Positions 20,196-27,009 of a stretch of DNA of 64,000 nt are shown here, piece after piece; position 1 is the first letter of the stretch, and each line of letters starts with the position of its first letter. The stretch is from Spirochaetales bacterium Spiro_12 (lineage in GTDB: Bacteria > Spirochaetota > Spirochaetia > Treponematales > Rectinemataceae). The DNA lies in NCBI GenBank assembly GCA_001603165.1, contig LVBN01000048.1, forward strand, positions 1 to 64,000, given 5' to 3'. The notes beneath the pieces were generated by a model. It was given only the letters and a program-made list of their open reading frames with translations, made no database searches and was not told the origin of the DNA. The position numbers and the translations under genes were made by a program.

Positions 20196-20325
20196 CCGGG
20201 CGGATTGTACACCTACTTGGCGGCCAGGGTAAAGGCGCGGTTCCCGGCCGCGATCCGAACCCTGGCAAATGCCTGCGGATATGGTATTATTGGCGTTTGA
20301 ACCCCAGGAGGGAGCGGGAAAAATC

Positions 20326-21879
20326 ATGAAGGCCAGCCGACAGAATAACAGCCCCGAACCTGTCGCCGCGATCGAGATAGGTTCGACGGGGATTCGGCTT
20401 TTAATAGCTTCCATCGACGAGACAGGCTCGGTCAACGTGCTCGACAGGGCGGGCAAGCCCAGCCGAATAGGCAGGGACGTCTTTACCACCGGAAGCATCG
20501 GAAGGGATGCCATACGGGAAAGCGTGGCTGTGCTTCTGTCTTTCAGGGAGCTATTGAACGGCTACGGCATAGAGCCGGACCGGACCAAGGTAATCGCCAC
20601 CAGCGCGCTGAGGGAAGCGGCCAACCGGGATACCTTTCTGGACAGGGTGCAGCTGCAGACCGGCTTTAAGATACGGGTTGTGGAAGATATCGAAGAAAAC
20701 CATCTGATGTATCTGGCAGTCCAACAAGCGCTGCAGGACGAGCGGAAACTTCTCTCCCGCAACAACGCCATGGTCCTGGAGGTGGGGGGAGGAACGACGG
20801 AGATCATGTTGCTTCGTCGAGGCAAGATGGTTTCGAGCCACAGCCTTCATATCGGGACCCTCAGGCTGGAAGAGCAGATGCGGGAAGCCGGAGCCTCGAA
20901 ACAGTATCTGCAGGAGTATCTGGAAAGCAACATCAAGAACGCCTGCGACCTCATGACAGAAGATATACCTCTGGAAACCATCAAATCCTTCATCGTCGTA
21001 GGTTCCGACGCGCGGCTGGCGGCGTATTACGTATCCGGCAAGAATTACGAAGGCTACTCGCTGCTGGATCGGGCCGGATTCATGGCCTTCGCCTCTTCGG
21101 CGGCGGCGATGTCCGTGGAGGATCTTATCGCCACCTACCATCTCCCCTGGGCGGAAGCCGAGGGGCTTGGCCCCGGTCTCATGATCGAGTCTCTTTTCCT
21201 GGCCAGAACAGGCGCCGAAGAACTGATAATACCCAAGGTTTCCATACGGGAAGGTCTTTTGCTCGCCGAGTCGAAAGGGCTCGACCCAGCGGTCGAGGAG
21301 GAATTGCGGCGTCAGATAGTCGCCTCGGCCCAGGCGCTGGGAAAACGATTCCATTACGACGAAGCGCACGCGCACAACGTCGCTTCACTGAGCGTAAGGC
21401 TCTTCGATTCGACCGCCGAAGAGCATGGCATGAAGAGGCATGAAAGGCTTTTGCTGGAGACGGCGGCCTTTCTCCACGACATAGGCACATATATCAGATC
21501 GTCCGGCCATCACCGCCACGGCGAATATATCGTCTCCAACTCGGAGATATTCGGGCTCAACAGGAGCGACATCAACATCATATCAAACGTTGTGCGCTAT
21601 CATAGGAGGACGCCCCCCTCCCCCGCCCACGTGAATTACATCTCCTTGCCCCGCGAAGACAGGATAACGGTGATGAAGTTGTCCGCCATACTGAGGGTCG
21701 CCGACGCCTTGGACAGAAATCATACGGGAAGAATGTACGATGCGCGATTCGAAAAAAACGGGGATCGCCTGATAATACGGTCGGCGCGCAACCTGGATTT
21801 TTCCCTGGAGCGTCTGTCGCTGGCCGACAAGGGCGATCTTTTCGAAGACGTTTTCGGTTTGTCGCCGATAATCGTATGA
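20326..21879 (+). CDS. ppx: Exopolyphosphatase / guanosine pentaphosphatase family (Ppx/GppA)
   Basis: About 517 aa. The N-terminal actin-like ATPase fold shows phosphate-binding loops AAIEIGSTGIRLLIA and MVLEVGGGTTEIMLL, with TSALREAANRD between. The C-terminal part (about 330-517) is an HD-type domain (RLLLETAAFLHDIGTYIRSSGHHRH). It releases phosphate from polyphosphate or converts pppGpp to ppGpp. The start at 20326 fits family N-termini and has a purine-rich site; an earlier ATG at 20269 is in frame. It lies 7 bases before ppk1, so synthesis and breakdown of polyphosphate are coexpressed. Confidence 0.9.
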   Translation: MKASRQNNSPEPVAAIEIGSTGIRLLIASIDETGSVNVLDRAGKPSRIGRDVFTTGSIGRDAIRESVAVLLSFRELLNGYGIEPDRTKVIATSALREAANRDTFLDRVQLQTGFKIRVVEDIEENHLMYLAVQQALQDERKLLSRNNAMVLEVGGGTTEIMLLRRGKMVSSHSLHIGTLRLEEQMREAGASKQYLQEYLESNIKNACDLMTEDIPLETIKSFIVVGSDARLAAYYVSGKNYEGYSLLDRAGFMAFASSAAAMSVEDLIATYHLPWAEAEGLGPGLMIESLFLARTGAEELIIPKVSIREGLLLAESKGLDPAVEEELRRQIVASAQALGKRFHYDEAHAHNVASLSVRLFDSTAEEHGMKRHERLLLETAAFLHDIGTYIRSSGHHRHGEYIVSNSEIFGLNRSDINIISNVVRYHRRTPPSPAHVNYISLPREDRITVMKLSAILRVADALDRNHTGRMYDARFEKNGDRLIIRSARNLDFSLERLSLADKGDLFEDVFGLSPIIV

Positions 21880-21886
21880 GGACGTC

Positions 21887-24031
21887 ATGAGCAGCCTTCC
21901 GATGATCAACCGGGAACTGGCCTGGATAGAGTTCAACGCGAGAATTCTGCACGAGGCCACGAAAACCTTCCTGCCCCTGTTGGAGCGATTGAAATTCTTG
22001 AGCATCGTATCCTCCAATTTCGACGAGTTTTTCATGGTGCGGGTGGCGGGCCTGAAAAACGAGATCCGCCAAACCGAAGATGGTTCGGCGGAACAAGGAA
22101 CCATTTTTCAGGGGTCCCGGAGCGCGAGCAGGCTTCTGACCCAGGTTTCGTCCAGGGTTCATGAAATCGTCGCCCTCCAGTATTCCTGCCTCACCCGGGA
22201 GGTTCTGCCCGGACTGGCCCAGGAAGGTCTGGAGCTTTTGGCTCCCGCGTCCTGGACGCCAATGGTCAAATCCTTTCTCGAGGCGTACTTTATCGAACAG
22301 GTGTTCCCCCTCATCACCCCCTTACGCTTCGACGAGGAGGAAGAATTACCGACCATCGGCAACCTGCAGATACACTGCGCCTTCGAACTGAGCGACCGGG
22401 ATGGCAAGCGGCACCACGCGCTGGCCCAGGCGCCCAAAAATTCCAGGCGCTTCATCCTTCTGCCCGACGAGGAGAGCGGGGAGTCCGGAAAATTCCGCTT
22501 CGCCCTCCTGGAAGACCTCATCGTCAGCTTCGCTTCCAAATTGTTCCCCGGCTTTTCGGTGGAGGGTTCCCTGGTGTTCAAGGTGACCAGGGACGCCGAC
22601 ACCGGGGTGGACGAAAGCAGGCAGGATGATTTTTTAAGCGCCATGGAAGAGGTCCTGGCGGGAAGACAGAACTCAACCCCCGTGCGCTTGAGCTATTTCG
22701 GCTCGTCGAAGCAGCTGGAAGCCCTGCTGCGAAAACGGCTGGCCCTCGGCGAGGTGGACTGCTACTCCCTGGAGGGACCGATAGATTTGGCGGGTTTTTA
22801 CGAACTCGTGAGCCTGGAACTGAAGGGCGGCGCGGGAAAGACCTCTCGGCTCAGGGATAAACCATGGAAACCCATCGCCCTGCCGAACTCCGAAGGCCTG
22901 AGCGTCTGGGAAGAGATCGAAACCAGGGACAGGCTGCTCTTCCTGCCCTACGAGTCTTTCGGCGCAATACAGCGCTTTTTGGACGAGGCGGCGGACGATC
23001 CTTCGGTGTTGGCGATCAAAATGACCCTCTATCGGACCTCCGGCGATTCCCCTGTGGTCAAGGCCCTGATCCGCGCGGCGCGGAACAGAAAACAGGTCGC
23101 CGTGGTGGTGGAACTGAAGGCCCGGTTCGACGAGGAGAGGAACATAAGCTGGGCTTCGACCCTGGAACAGGCCGGCGCGATCGTTACCTACGGAGTGGCG
23201 CGGCTGAAGGTCCACGCCAAGGCCGCGCTCGTGCTGCGCAGGGCCAGGGACGGCTCCATACGCAAGTACCTGCATCTCTCCACCGGTAATTACAACGACA
23301 AAACCGCCAGGATATATTCCGACCTTTCCCTGTTCACCGCCAACGAAGAGCTGTGCAGGGAGGCTTCGGCTTTTTTCAACATGCTCACCGGTTATTCCAC
23401 GATCCAAAGTCTGAAACACTTGGCCGTGGGGCCTTTCGATCTCAAAAGCAGGCTCCTCGCCTTGATCGAAAGGGAAATTCAGAAAAGCAGCGCGGAATCG
23501 CCGGGACTGATCGAGATGAAGCTCAACGCCCTGGCCGACCGGGAGGTAATCCAGGCATTGTACAAAGCGTCCAAGGCTCGGGTCAGAGTGCGCCTTAACG
23601 TGCGGGGCGCCTGCACCCTGCTGCCGGGTATCCCCGGCCTTTCCGATTCGATCGAGGTCAGGAGCGTCGTCGGTCGTTACCTGGAGCATAGCCGCATGCT
23701 CCACTTCCGCAACGGGGGCCAGGACGAGGTTTATCTCTCCAGCGCCGATTGCCTGCCCAGAAACCTGGAGCGCCGGGTGGAATTGATGTTCCCGGTTCTG
23801 GACGAGTCCTTGGCGAAGAGCTGCAGAGAAATCTTTTCCGTCTACTTCAAGGACAACGAACACTCCTACAGGATGAAACCCGATGGGAGCTGGGAACCTG
23901 TGCTGCCCGAGGAGGGCGAGAAGAAGGCTTATGCCCAGGAGCTGCTCTATAAGCGGATCGAACGCCTGGCCGAAATAGCCGAGGCTCCGCCCGAACAATT
24001 GGTGGTAAGACGGCGCTTCAGATCCCGATGA
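21887..24031 (+). CDS. ppk1: Polyphosphate kinase 1
   Basis: 714 aa. Reversibly transfers the ATP gamma-phosphate to a polyphosphate chain. Characteristic blocks: NRELAWIEFNARIL and SNFDEFFMVRVAGLK (N-terminal), ITPLRFD, LFLPYESFGAIQRFL, MTLYRTSGDSPVV, ARFDEERNISWASTLEQAG, RLKVHAKAALVLRR (first catalytic His), LSTGNYNDKTARIYSDLSLFT and EHSRMLHF (second His). All four domains of the family are present. It follows ppx by 7 bases. The Pst-Pho operon at 37-45 kb serves the same phosphate economy. Confidence 0.96.
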   Translation: MSSLPMINRELAWIEFNARILHEATKTFLPLLERLKFLSIVSSNFDEFFMVRVAGLKNEIRQTEDGSAEQGTIFQGSRSASRLLTQVSSRVHEIVALQYSCLTREVLPGLAQEGLELLAPASWTPMVKSFLEAYFIEQVFPLITPLRFDEEEELPTIGNLQIHCAFELSDRDGKRHHALAQAPKNSRRFILLPDEESGESGKFRFALLEDLIVSFASKLFPGFSVEGSLVFKVTRDADTGVDESRQDDFLSAMEEVLAGRQNSTPVRLSYFGSSKQLEALLRKRLALGEVDCYSLEGPIDLAGFYELVSLELKGGAGKTSRLRDKPWKPIALPNSEGLSVWEEIETRDRLLFLPYESFGAIQRFLDEAADDPSVLAIKMTLYRTSGDSPVVKALIRAARNRKQVAVVVELKARFDEERNISWASTLEQAGAIVTYGVARLKVHAKAALVLRRARDGSIRKYLHLSTGNYNDKTARIYSDLSLFTANEELCREASAFFNMLTGYSTIQSLKHLAVGPFDLKSRLLALIEREIQKSSAESPGLIEMKLNALADREVIQALYKASKARVRVRLNVRGACTLLPGIPGLSDSIEVRSVVGRYLEHSRMLHFRNGGQDEVYLSSADCLPRNLERRVELMFPVLDESLAKSCREIFSVYFKDNEHSYRMKPDGSWEPVLPEEGEKKAYAQELLYKRIERLAEIAEAPPEQLVVRRRFRSR

Positions 24032-24034
24032 ACC

Positions 24035-24439
24035 TTAATCGCAGCGCCGGATCACCACGGGAAGCGAATCCTGCGCCCGGGCTTTCTGCACCATGACTCC
24101 GACAGCCAGGCTTAGGACGAACAGGATGCCCGCCGCCGCCACCGCCGGCCCCTCGGTCGTATGGGGGAAGAGAAGTCTTCCCAATCCATAGCCGACGAAA
24201 AGGGCGGCCAACGGGAGGCCGAGCACCCAGAAAGCGCCCTTAGCCTGCTCGCTCCCGGACACTTCTATCTCAACGCTATCGCCTTCGGTAAGCGGTATAC
24301 CCTTGGAATTCAGAACCTTCAGGTCGGAGCGGCCGGCCTTGCAGGCTCCGTTTATACAGGATTCGCACCCTTCGTGCATGGCTATGGCGACGCGGACGAT
24401 CCTTCCCTCAACTGCCTTGATCGTTCCCGTTTCTCTCAT
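24035..24439 (-). CDS. RseC/MucC-like redox-associated membrane protein
   Basis: 134 aa. The N-terminal part has the Cys cluster HEGCESCINGACK (three Cys) and the GTIKAVEGRIVRV start typical of RseC/MucC proteins; two hydrophobic segments follow (about 70-88 and 97-118). Family members are tied to SoxR reduction and the Rnf electron-transfer complex. The ATG has an AAGGAG and lies inside the end of the YmdB-like gene (32-base overlap), so translation is coupled. No rnf genes are in the window. Confidence 0.75.
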   Translation of the reverse strand: MRETGTIKAVEGRIVRVAIAMHEGCESCINGACKAGRSDLKVLNSKGIPLTEGDSVEIEVSGSEQAKGAFWVLGLPLAALFVGYGLGRLLFPHTTEGPAVAAAGILFVLSLAVGVMVQKARAQDSLPVVIRRCD

Positions 24440-25235
24440 CGATATTCTCCTTGCAGGGGATGCGGAAGCTTTCGATAGCCTCGGCTCGGCCGGAATCGGC
24501 GATGCGCAGAACGCAGCCTTGAATCTCCAAGCCCAAATTCCCGTCCCCCGCCCAGGCCCTAAGGGCCGTCATATACTCCCTTACCTTCGCCTCGGGGTTC
24601 ATTCCCCCCACGGACTGGATGCTGCCGGTGCGACCGCAGTCGGTAATGGCGGCGGTTCCCCGGGGGCTCAGCCGGGCGTCGGCGGTAAGGGCCTTGGCAT
24701 GGCTTCCCAGGACCGCCGAAACACGGCCGTCCAGATAGGCGGCCATGGTGAGTTTTTCCGCCGTGGTGGCGGCGTGGAAATCCACCAGTATGGTCCGGCA
24801 CTCGTTGCTCAACTTAGCGAGCAGGTGGTCGGCGGTCAGGAACGGATTTTCAGCATGAACTCTGGCAAAACCCGCCTGACCGAGGAGCGAGAGCACCACG
24901 AGGCTCCCTTGCCCGGTTTTAAAATACTTCCACCCCCGCCCCGGATTGTCGTAGGGATAGTTCGCCGGCCTCACGACCCAGCCCGCCCTGGGATAGAACT
25001 CCGTCATGTCGGGCTTGTAGTAGGCGCAGTCCCCGACCGTGAGGCAATCCACACCAAGCTTGCGCAGGTAAACCGCGTGCTGGACGCCCAAACCGGCAAC
25101 GCCGGTGGCGGAGTCGGCGCAGGCGAGGATGAAGTCCGGTTTATATCGGTTCCGCAGTTCCGGAAGACCGCTTTTAAGGGCGAAGACGCCGGCCTTACCA
25201 GTGATCTCGCCGACGTAGGCTATGGAAAGACTCAT
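24408..25235 (-). CDS. YmdB-family metallophosphoesterase homologue with altered metal site
   Basis: 275 aa. The fold and length match the YmdB/TIGR00282 cyclic-nucleotide phosphodiesterase family: KPDFILA near 35, VRPANYPY near 90, DFHAATTAEK near 152 and TDCGRTG near 198. Several metal ligands are replaced compared with Bacillus YmdB: D8 is E10, E39 is D41, N40 is S42, N67 is D69, the general-acid H68 is C70 and H177 is K181. H154 and H179 remain. It may therefore bind metal differently or have lost activity. It is coupled to the RseC-like gene. Confidence 0.8.
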   Translation of the reverse strand: MSLSIAYVGEITGKAGVFALKSGLPELRNRYKPDFILACADSATGVAGLGVQHAVYLRKLGVDCLTVGDCAYYKPDMTEFYPRAGWVVRPANYPYDNPGRGWKYFKTGQGSLVVLSLLGQAGFARVHAENPFLTADHLLAKLSNECRTILVDFHAATTAEKLTMAAYLDGRVSAVLGSHAKALTADARLSPRGTAAITDCGRTGSIQSVGGMNPEAKVREYMTALRAWAGDGNLGLEIQGCVLRIADSGRAEAIESFRIPCKENIDERNGNDQGS

Positions 25236-25383: not shown

Positions 25384-25875
25384 TCACTGGTCGGAATAGC
25401 GCTGCACCTCGTCGAACACATATTCGAGCCTGACACCGGCCGCCGCGAACATAGCTTCGCTTTCGGCGCCGTCGTGGTAGCGACGCTCGCAGACTACCCG
25501 GACGATGCCGCAGTTGATGATCATCATCGCGCAGGTCCTGCAGGGAGTCATCCGGCAGTAGAGGGTCGCGCCCTGGATACCGACGCCCCGTTTGGCCGCC
25601 TGGCAGATCGCGTTCTGTTCGGCGTGGACGGTCCGGACGCAATGCTGCGTCACGGAGCCATCCTCATGGAGCATTTTCTTCAGCTGATGCCCCACTTGGT
25701 CGCAGTGGGGCAGGCCGCTGGGGGCGCCGACGTACCCTGTGGCGAGTATCTGGTTATCCTTGGCTATGACGCATCCAGACCTGCCGCGATCGCAGGTGGC
25801 TCGCTTCGCGATCGCGTTGCACACTTCCATGAAGTATTCGTCCCAGCTGGGTCTTAGGTATCCTGATTCGGCCAT
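25384..25875 (-). CDS. dCMP deaminase family protein
   Basis: 163 aa zinc enzyme that deaminates dCMP to dUMP for thymidylate synthesis. The zinc site is complete: HAEQNAI and [32 protein letters not shown] and the Cys/His-containing insert between them ([14 protein letters not shown]) match ComEB/DCTD-type deaminases. A longer antiparallel frame runs to 26697, but the extra part is only the shadow of the immunophilin gene. The ATG at 25875 has no good ribosome site. It is divergent from the immunophilin gene. Confidence 0.9.
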
Positions 25876-25986
25876 GGGGCCATGATGGCCGTTCACAGCC
25901 CGATAGTCAAGCCGAAAGGCGCTCTCGGGCTTTTCAGATACATGCTTTTCTGCTATGGTAGGCCCAGTTTTCCTTCGGAGGCGCGC

Positions 25987-27009
25987 GTGAGAGCTTATTC
26001 CAAAGTTGCCATGGGTTTTGCCCTGTTTTTTATCGTCGCCGGCATGGTGTCCTGCCAGAGTTCGGAACGTCCCGAGGGCATGTACGCGATCTTCGAAACC
26101 GACAGGGGCAAGATTGTCGCCTCGCTGGAATTCGAAAAGGCGCCCATGACCGTGGGCAACTTTGTGGGCCTGGCGGAGGGCAGGCTGGACGCCGCCAATG
26201 GCAAGCCTTTCTATAACGGAACCGTCTTTCATCGGGTCGAACCCGGCTTCGTGATCCAGGGCGGGGACCCCAAGGGCGACGGCACCGGAGGTCCGGGGTA
26301 TCGGTTCCCCGACGAATTCTCCCCCGACCTCAAGCATGACGGAGCGGGTATTCTCTCCATGGCCAACGCCGGCTCCAACACGAATGGAAGTCAGTTTTTC
26401 ATCACGCTGGGAGCGGCGGCCTGGCTGGACGGCAGGCACTCGGTATTCGGCAAGGTGGTGGAAGGACAGGAAGTAGCTTCGGCGATCGTCGCCGGCGATC
26501 GGATCAAAAGCCTCAAAATCGAAAGGGTGGGCAGCGCGGCCAAAAACTTCGACGCTTCCCAAAAAGCATGGGACGAACGCTTGAGCGCGGCATACGCGGC
26601 CCTGCGCGCCGCGGCCCAGGCCAAGCGCCAGTCGGACAGGGCCGCCATACAGGCCTCCTGGCCCGATGCTGTCGAAGACGAGTACGGCATATTCCAAAAG
26701 GTGCTCCGCAAAGGCTTCGGCGATACGCCAGCCAAGGGCGACACGGTATCGGTCATATACAAGGGGATGCTCCTGGACGGCACCGTATTCGATCAGTCGG
26801 CCTTGTCGGGGGGGCCCCTCAGCTTCACCATCGGTACCGGCGAAATCATCGACGGCTGGGACAAGGTGGTTTCATCGATGCGCAAAGCGGAAAAGCGCAT
26901 CGCAATCATTCCCCCCGAACTGGCCTACGGCTCCTCGGGGATAAGCGGCGTCATACCGGCCGATGCATATCTGGTTTTTGAAATGGAGCTTACCGCTATC
27001 AAAAAATGA
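25987..27009 (+). CDS. Dual immunophilin lipoprotein: cyclophilin fused to FKBP
   Basis: 340 aa peptidyl-prolyl isomerase with two unrelated catalytic domains. The GTG at 25987 has GGAGG five bases upstream and gives a signal ending in a lipobox GMVSC (Cys near 19), so the protein is an exported lipoprotein. The cyclophilin domain (about 25-180) has [34 protein letters not shown] and [10 protein letters not shown]. After a helical linker rich in Ala, the FKBP domain (about 235-340) has [34 protein letters not shown] and PPELAYG. Cyclophilin-first fusions have been described in treponemes. It should assist folding of envelope proteins. Confidence 0.92.

Follow-up and report, generated by a model that had tools for sequence, protein, structure and literature searches.

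The window analysed here, a stretch of DNA of 64,000 nucleotides, carries on its minus strand a gene of the YmdB family in which most residues of the catalytic site have been exchanged. We lean towards regarding this gene as an ancient paralogue of YmdB, in which the family sequence has been kept at full length while the two-metal catalytic site would no longer be built. Its sequence conservation and its retention or loss together with the canonical YmdB suggest to us, on balance, a conserved pseudoenzyme, which would act with the active YmdB, or regulate it, without being catalytic itself. We use for the clade of the window type the name "YmdB2", coined in this analysis.

Two YmdB genes in one genome

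The gene considered is the following:

24408..25235, minus strand: ymdB2, putative catalytically altered YmdB paralogue, ATG at 25235, 275 aa

Compared with the Pfam model PF13277 (YmdB), the window protein scored 243.3 bits (3.2e-72, the curated cut-off being 27), and its residues 7-256 were matched to positions 2-252 of the 253 of the model. This means that it belongs to the PF13277 sequence family over the full model, which bears out the first-pass annotation, according to which it aligns with YmdB over its whole length. With TIGR00282 (a hypothetical equivalog, metallophosphoesterase) it scored 188.9 bits, below the curated cut-off of 254.15. The nearest solved chain is 4b2o, the YmdB of B. 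subtilis (E 5.7e-43, residues 5-255 aligned). The alignment with TIGR00282 and YmdB and the mapping of the ligands on 4b2o, proposed earlier as a check, were carried out: the ligand motifs of the window protein are aligned with those of 4b2o free of gaps. An AlphaFold2 model built from 3 sequences only (the window protein, L032 and L033) had a mean pLDDT of 39.

A search of the organism's own genome with PF13277 gave two genes. The second one (contig C109; L001) has all the canonical site residues (DENNHHHH) and lies directly after the gene of RNase Y (rny). This canonical second copy, which could not be seen from the window, alters the picture drawn from the window gene taken singly. A PF13277 match was found in 50 of the 58 genomes of relatives searched (the genome of the window included), mostly as two genes. 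We aligned 113 rows, taken from the loci around the PF13277 genes of these relatives and of more distant members of the phylum; duplicate sequences and matches shorter than 200 aa were dropped before the rows were counted. In the resulting tree, one single branch, with a support of 100/100, divides 49 canonical rows from 64 YmdB2 rows. The window protein lies across this branch from the canonical clade, and is therefore no orthologue of the YmdB of the rny locus.

The survey was made within the phylum. The YmdB2 clade comprises thirteen sampled families of the window's class (f1-f13) and two families outside it (f14 and f27); the Borrelia-like group (f7) contributes four rows. Six genomes of f14 and f27 have a YmdB2 row, and in the five of them where the second gene was fetched it is canonical (5/5). 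In the eight sampled genomes outside the class with one gene only (L105-L112), this gene is canonical. A homologue search of genome contigs with the window gene itself returned just 2 close relatives. The altered site is not the oddity of a single genome that it might have been taken for at first; it is the mark of a clade of 64 rows.

The altered catalytic site

The site of YmdB, as described in PMC10406935, consists of D8, E39, N40, N67, H150, H175 and H177, with H68 and D71. At these places, according to the alignment, the window protein has E10, D41, S42, D69, H154, H179 and K181, with C70 and Y73. The list drawn up in the first-pass annotation (E10, D41, S42, D69, C70 and K181 in place of the usual residues, H154 and H179 kept) is correct. 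The replacement of D71 by Y73 was absent from it; since D71 is kept in merely 2 of the 49 canonical rows, this change is uninformative. The places concerned, with two YmdB2-specific ones (counts refer to the rows of the alignment), are as follows:

25206..25208, minus strand: E10, replacing ligand D8; all YmdB2 rows (64/64) have E here and all canonical rows (49/49) have D
25110..25115, minus strand: D41 and S42, replacing ligands E39 and N40
25026..25031, minus strand: D69 and C70, replacing ligand N67 and the catalytic acid H68; C in 21/64 YmdB2 rows, 14 residue types
24855..24863, minus strand: R125-x-H127, YmdB2-specific motif; K/R in 63/64 and H in 50/64, position 127 being a gap in 49/49 canonical rows
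24774..24776, minus strand: H154, corresponding to ligand H150 and kept; H in 54/64 YmdB2 rows
24693..24701, minus strand: H179 (equivalent of H175, kept, 40/64) to K181 (equivalent of H177; K/R in 63/64)
24630..24632, minus strand: R202, YmdB2-specific Arg; 57/64 in YmdB2, Met in 49/49 canonical rows

All eight site residues are found in 49 of the 49 canonical rows. Two of the seven ligands are kept in the window protein and 0 to 3 of 7 across YmdB2 (none in 10 of the 64 rows), so that the ligand set of a two-metal phosphodiesterase is absent. The catalytic acid H68 is missing too: its place is taken by C70 in the window protein, and an H stands there in 1 of the 64 YmdB2 rows. Some binding of metal by the window protein would be conceivable, H154 and H179 being present.

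What replaces the canonical residues is itself conserved. The Lys or Arg at position 177 has L077, with a Leu, as its sole exception; position 67 is D or E in 63/64 rows, and position 39 is D, E or N in 64/64. Gained residues absent from the canonical clade include K/R21 and T/S44 (64/64 each), to which the R125-x-H127 motif must be added; R202 is wanting only in the six rows of f14 and f27 and in L058. In the four Borrelia-like rows, positions 8/39/40/67/68 are E-N-F-E-N and positions 150/175/177 are D-G-R, which leaves them no ligand histidine at all. It had been asked whether spirochaete homologues share the E/D/S/D/C/K of the window protein: the Glu at position 8 and the Lys or Arg at 177 are shared, the Cys is not. 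E/D/S/D/C/K is a local form of a broader YmdB2 rule, to which the Cys does not belong. A Cys-based redox site at C70 was accordingly rejected as a general feature. The changed cofactor considered in the first-pass annotation is likewise rejected as a property of the clade, because the remaining ligand histidines are not conserved.

In the main rival explanation, YmdB2 would catalyse a new reaction, with one metal or none, in the pathway in which YmdB acts; we regard this explanation as possible but rather unlikely. The invariant E10 and E160, and the near-invariant K/R181, D/E69, T158, K/R125 and R202, could be catalytic, and the lasso-peptide epimerase MslH, as described in PMC10406935, is a calcineurin-like fold turned to another reaction. 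However, MslH has retained one metal and its H/D dyads, unlike YmdB2; the place of the acid is highly variable, H150 and H175 vary as well, and no biosynthetic or catabolic cluster conserved around YmdB2 was found in the neighbourhoods of the loci examined.

Joint occurrence and gene neighbourhood

We cross-tabulated the presence of YmdB, YmdB2, RseC, rny and RnfC over the 58 genomes, split or partial genes being counted as present, and the presence of RnfC requiring a score of at least 390 bits, a threshold set after the scores were seen. Among the 23 genomes at least 98% complete, 16 have both YmdB genes, 7 have neither and none has a single one. When the 45 genomes at least 90% complete are taken, 34 have both, 8 neither, 3 YmdB2 only (G002, G020 and G022) and none the canonical gene only; over all 58 genomes these numbers become 44 both, 4 YmdB2 only, 2 canonical only and 8 neither. 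A real match to rny is also missing from G002 and G022 (G020 has rny), which suggests that their YmdB2-only state reflects an assembly gap or a missing contig. In the phylum sample, the 37 matching genomes of the window's class all have at least two PF13277 genes (37/37).

The two genes were lost in some Treponema-like genomes (f3). Among 134 genomes of this family, 107 have no match and 27 do; there are two genes in 26 of these 27, several of which are split or fragmentary and were classed by place and score (by residue just in those fetched), and one gene in G245. RNase Y was found in 131 of the 134. In a tree of rny (44 rows), the state with neither gene needs at least 3 changes, 2 of which are forced by strongly supported branches: the small-genome G039 groups with G253, which has both genes, and the remaining losses fall in other parts of the tree. 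Were losses irreversible, more events would be needed, the two-gene genomes of g37 nesting among the losers in this one gene tree of modest support. Three loci of losers (L134, L146 and L149) have a TPR gene followed by rseC, near cheB, a cheR-like gene and rny (TPR, RseC and CheB were found by Pfam on L146), where L034, L047 and L057 have the TPR gene, then ymdB2, then rseC. This means that these genomes lost ymdB2, and the canonical ymdB as well, but kept rseC and rny.

It seems that YmdB2 is required only in the presence of YmdB, and we rank this as the strongest functional evidence; the co-loss concerns one family (f3) and few independent events, and, the genomes being non-independent, the Fisher p values overstate the significance. 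Joint retention could also mean that the two proteins are enzymes of one pathway. As a side observation, the YmdB2 matches of G252 and G254-G257 (one Treponema-like species group) are split near profile position 193, which suggests an insertion or frame breaks. The canonical match of G041 (G041:C1:1127284-1128114) falls into parts separated by a short gap, all in a single open frame of 297 aa, probably because of an insertion in the canonical enzyme.

The neighbours of the window gene are the following:

24035..24439, minus strand: rseC homologue (PF04246, RseC/MucC), 134 aa, overlapping ymdB2 by 32 nt
25384..25875, minus strand: gene resembling dCMP/cytidine deaminase, found next to ymdB2 on its upstream side in many genomes of f1 and f4

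The overlap with the RseC-like reading frame spans 24408-24439, and an AGGAG stands inside ymdB2, upstream of the rseC start. An RseC-like frame lies directly downstream, overlapping and co-directional, in 40 of 63 YmdB2 loci and in 0 of 48 canonical loci (as found with a local iterated profile), and this adjacency occurs in several families. One could conclude from it that YmdB2 serves RseC and a Rnf/SoxR-type redox system, for instance in its regulation or assembly. We hold this to be improbable. The presence of YmdB2 is unrelated to that of RseC (p 0.62 over the 23 near-complete genomes, 0.69 over all 58) and to that of RnfC (p 0.56 and 1, respectively), whereas RseC follows RnfC (p 0.021 and 0.0005), these p values ignoring shared ancestry. 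Moreover, no RseC match was found in the 12 Borrelia-like genomes among those listed, all 12 of which have YmdB2, and RseC persists where YmdB2 was lost. By presence, YmdB2 does not belong to an RseC/Rnf redox module, and the redox-linked role suggested at first finds no support beyond the gene neighbourhood. According to PMC9124969, the Rnf of C. ljungdahlii requires RseC as a regulator. That RseC follows a high-scoring RnfC fits a role with Rnf; its tie to RnfC leaves the adjacency to ymdB2 unexplained.

Other neighbours differ between families. In the loci of f3 and f5 that were examined (L034, L047 and L057; Pfam on L047), the gene upstream of ymdB2 codes for a TPR protein. In the Borrelia-like locus L087, ymdB2 lies between the gene of signal peptidase II (with one small reading frame between) and an EPSP-synthase-family gene; from this gene context, it is presumably BB_0471 of Borrelia. 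In PMC6711536, BB_0471 is given merely as a hypothetical protein. In the window, the genes of a Ppx/GppA phosphatase that carries an HD domain (20269-21879) and of polyphosphate kinase 1 (21887-24031) lie side by side and are oriented convergently to the ymdB2-rseC pair; the kinase is also found downstream in several f1 loci. The reading frame 25882-27009 looks, by eye, like a fusion of cyclophilin-type and FKBP-type peptidyl-prolyl isomerases. In several f3 genera (L153; G251, G248, G246, G240, G241 and G226), ymdB2 lies about 5-6 kb from rny, the canonical ymdB being elsewhere; the distance is the same in G245, where the canonical ymdB was not found. It is 8-9 kb from the rny-ymdB pair in G038 and G046, and about 20 kb separate the two YmdB genes in Borrelia-like genomes. 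An old common neighbourhood of the YmdB genes with RNase Y seems likely.

Selection, proposed role and known systems

For the window ymdB2 and its counterparts in two genus mates, dN/dS was 0.059/1.001 and 0.076/1.48 (about 0.05-0.06), similar to that of the canonical copy with one genus mate, 0.058/0.823 (0.07); the pair Y1_G021/Y1_G023, being out of frame, was left out. The loss of catalytic residues thus goes together with purifying selection, and YmdB2 is a maintained protein, not a relic. This agrees with the earlier opinion that the gene is otherwise intact, and speaks against chance or decay: the changes recur in the 64 YmdB2 rows, and dN/dS is like that of the canonical copy. There is little chance that YmdB2 is a still active YmdB-like phosphodiesterase whose metal would be held instead by E, D, S, D and K: in the window protein the E and D, with H154 and H179, could hold one metal, but the Lys or Arg at 177, the loss of the acid H68 and the four Borrelia-like rows deprived of any ligand histidine argue against it. 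A decaying duplicate, for which the loss of catalytic residues alone would speak, is contradicted by dN/dS values well below 0.1, by the depth of the clade and by the invariant new residues, and we rejected it as very improbable.

Three readings had been offered for the changed site: a changed cofactor, a new reaction and a binding-only role. The first is unlikely for the clade, the second we have placed above as the main rival, and the third fits best. In the pseudoenzyme that we favour, K/R181 and E10, often with D/E69 and perhaps with R202, would form a salt-bridge network replacing the metals. In MslH, which has lost metal 2, a direct hydrogen bond joins the residues at the places of D8 and H177 (PMC10406935), so that the geometry permits a salt bridge between E10 and K/R181. 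Such a salt bridge, like the positions of R202 and R125 in the fold, is a prediction. The gained basic residues (K/R21, K/R74, R/K125, K/R181 and R202) may form a pocket or surface binding an anionic ligand or a protein; a candidate ligand would be a nucleotide or an RNA end, bound without hydrolysis. YmdB2 might then act as a partner or regulator of YmdB in the manner of a prozyme, or by sequestering the same ligand. Its co-translation with rseC in many lineages would be a matter of genomic convenience or shared expression, and would imply no common mechanism.

As a bolder proposal, which we consider less likely than not, YmdB2 may be a phylum-deep pseudoenzyme in which two metals have been replaced in place by Lys or Arg. 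It would be an obligate partner (an activator or a ligand-sensing subunit, prozyme-like) of a YmdB acting with RNase Y, both proteins having been shed together in Treponema lineages. Among the titles and abstract openings listed for YmdB, RNase Y, spirochaetes, TIGR00282 and BB0471, no description of a paralogue like YmdB2 was found. Pseudoenzymes are common in eukaryotes; to our knowledge, few in bacteria have so clear an evolutionary signature. A gene known as "hypothetical protein" is kept with an active YmdB from Borrelia-like to free-living spirochaetes. The role of YmdB in RNA turnover is poorly understood, and the pairing of the two genes and their loss in Treponema-like genomes offer a ready test of YmdB function. 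We must also note, as a caution, that ymdB2 should not be annotated as a metallophosphoesterase.

Finally, YmdB2 can be compared to known systems. The YmdB of B. subtilis (4B2O) and the TIGR00282/PF13277 enzymes 1T70, 1T71 and 2CV9 belong to the same family and share with it most of their length and common motifs; these four solved chains have the canonical D, EN, NH, H and HxH, whereas the window protein has E, DS, DC, H and HxK. The canonical YmdB of the same genome (L001) is of the same family and is kept or lost together with YmdB2, but differs from it by its full metal site, its place beside rny and its clade. MslH resembles YmdB2 in having a YmdB-like part with a reduced metal site, in which the residues at the places of D8 and H177 touch; according to the description in PMC10406935, it differs in that it keeps one metal and two H/D dyads, is 16% identical to YmdB and belongs to a biosynthetic cluster. 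Vps29 of retromer is a metallophosphoesterase fold deprived of the catalytic His and used as a scaffold; unlike YmdB2, it is eukaryotic, of another subfamily and, as PMC2674652 presents it, altered in its metal motif without replacement by Lys or Arg. The prozyme of trypanosome AdoMetDC (PMC6221367) is related to an enzyme without kinship to YmdB, and a heterodimer has been shown for it where the pairing of YmdB2 is known from the genes alone; it has in common with YmdB2 that a catalytically dead paralogue is kept beside an active one.
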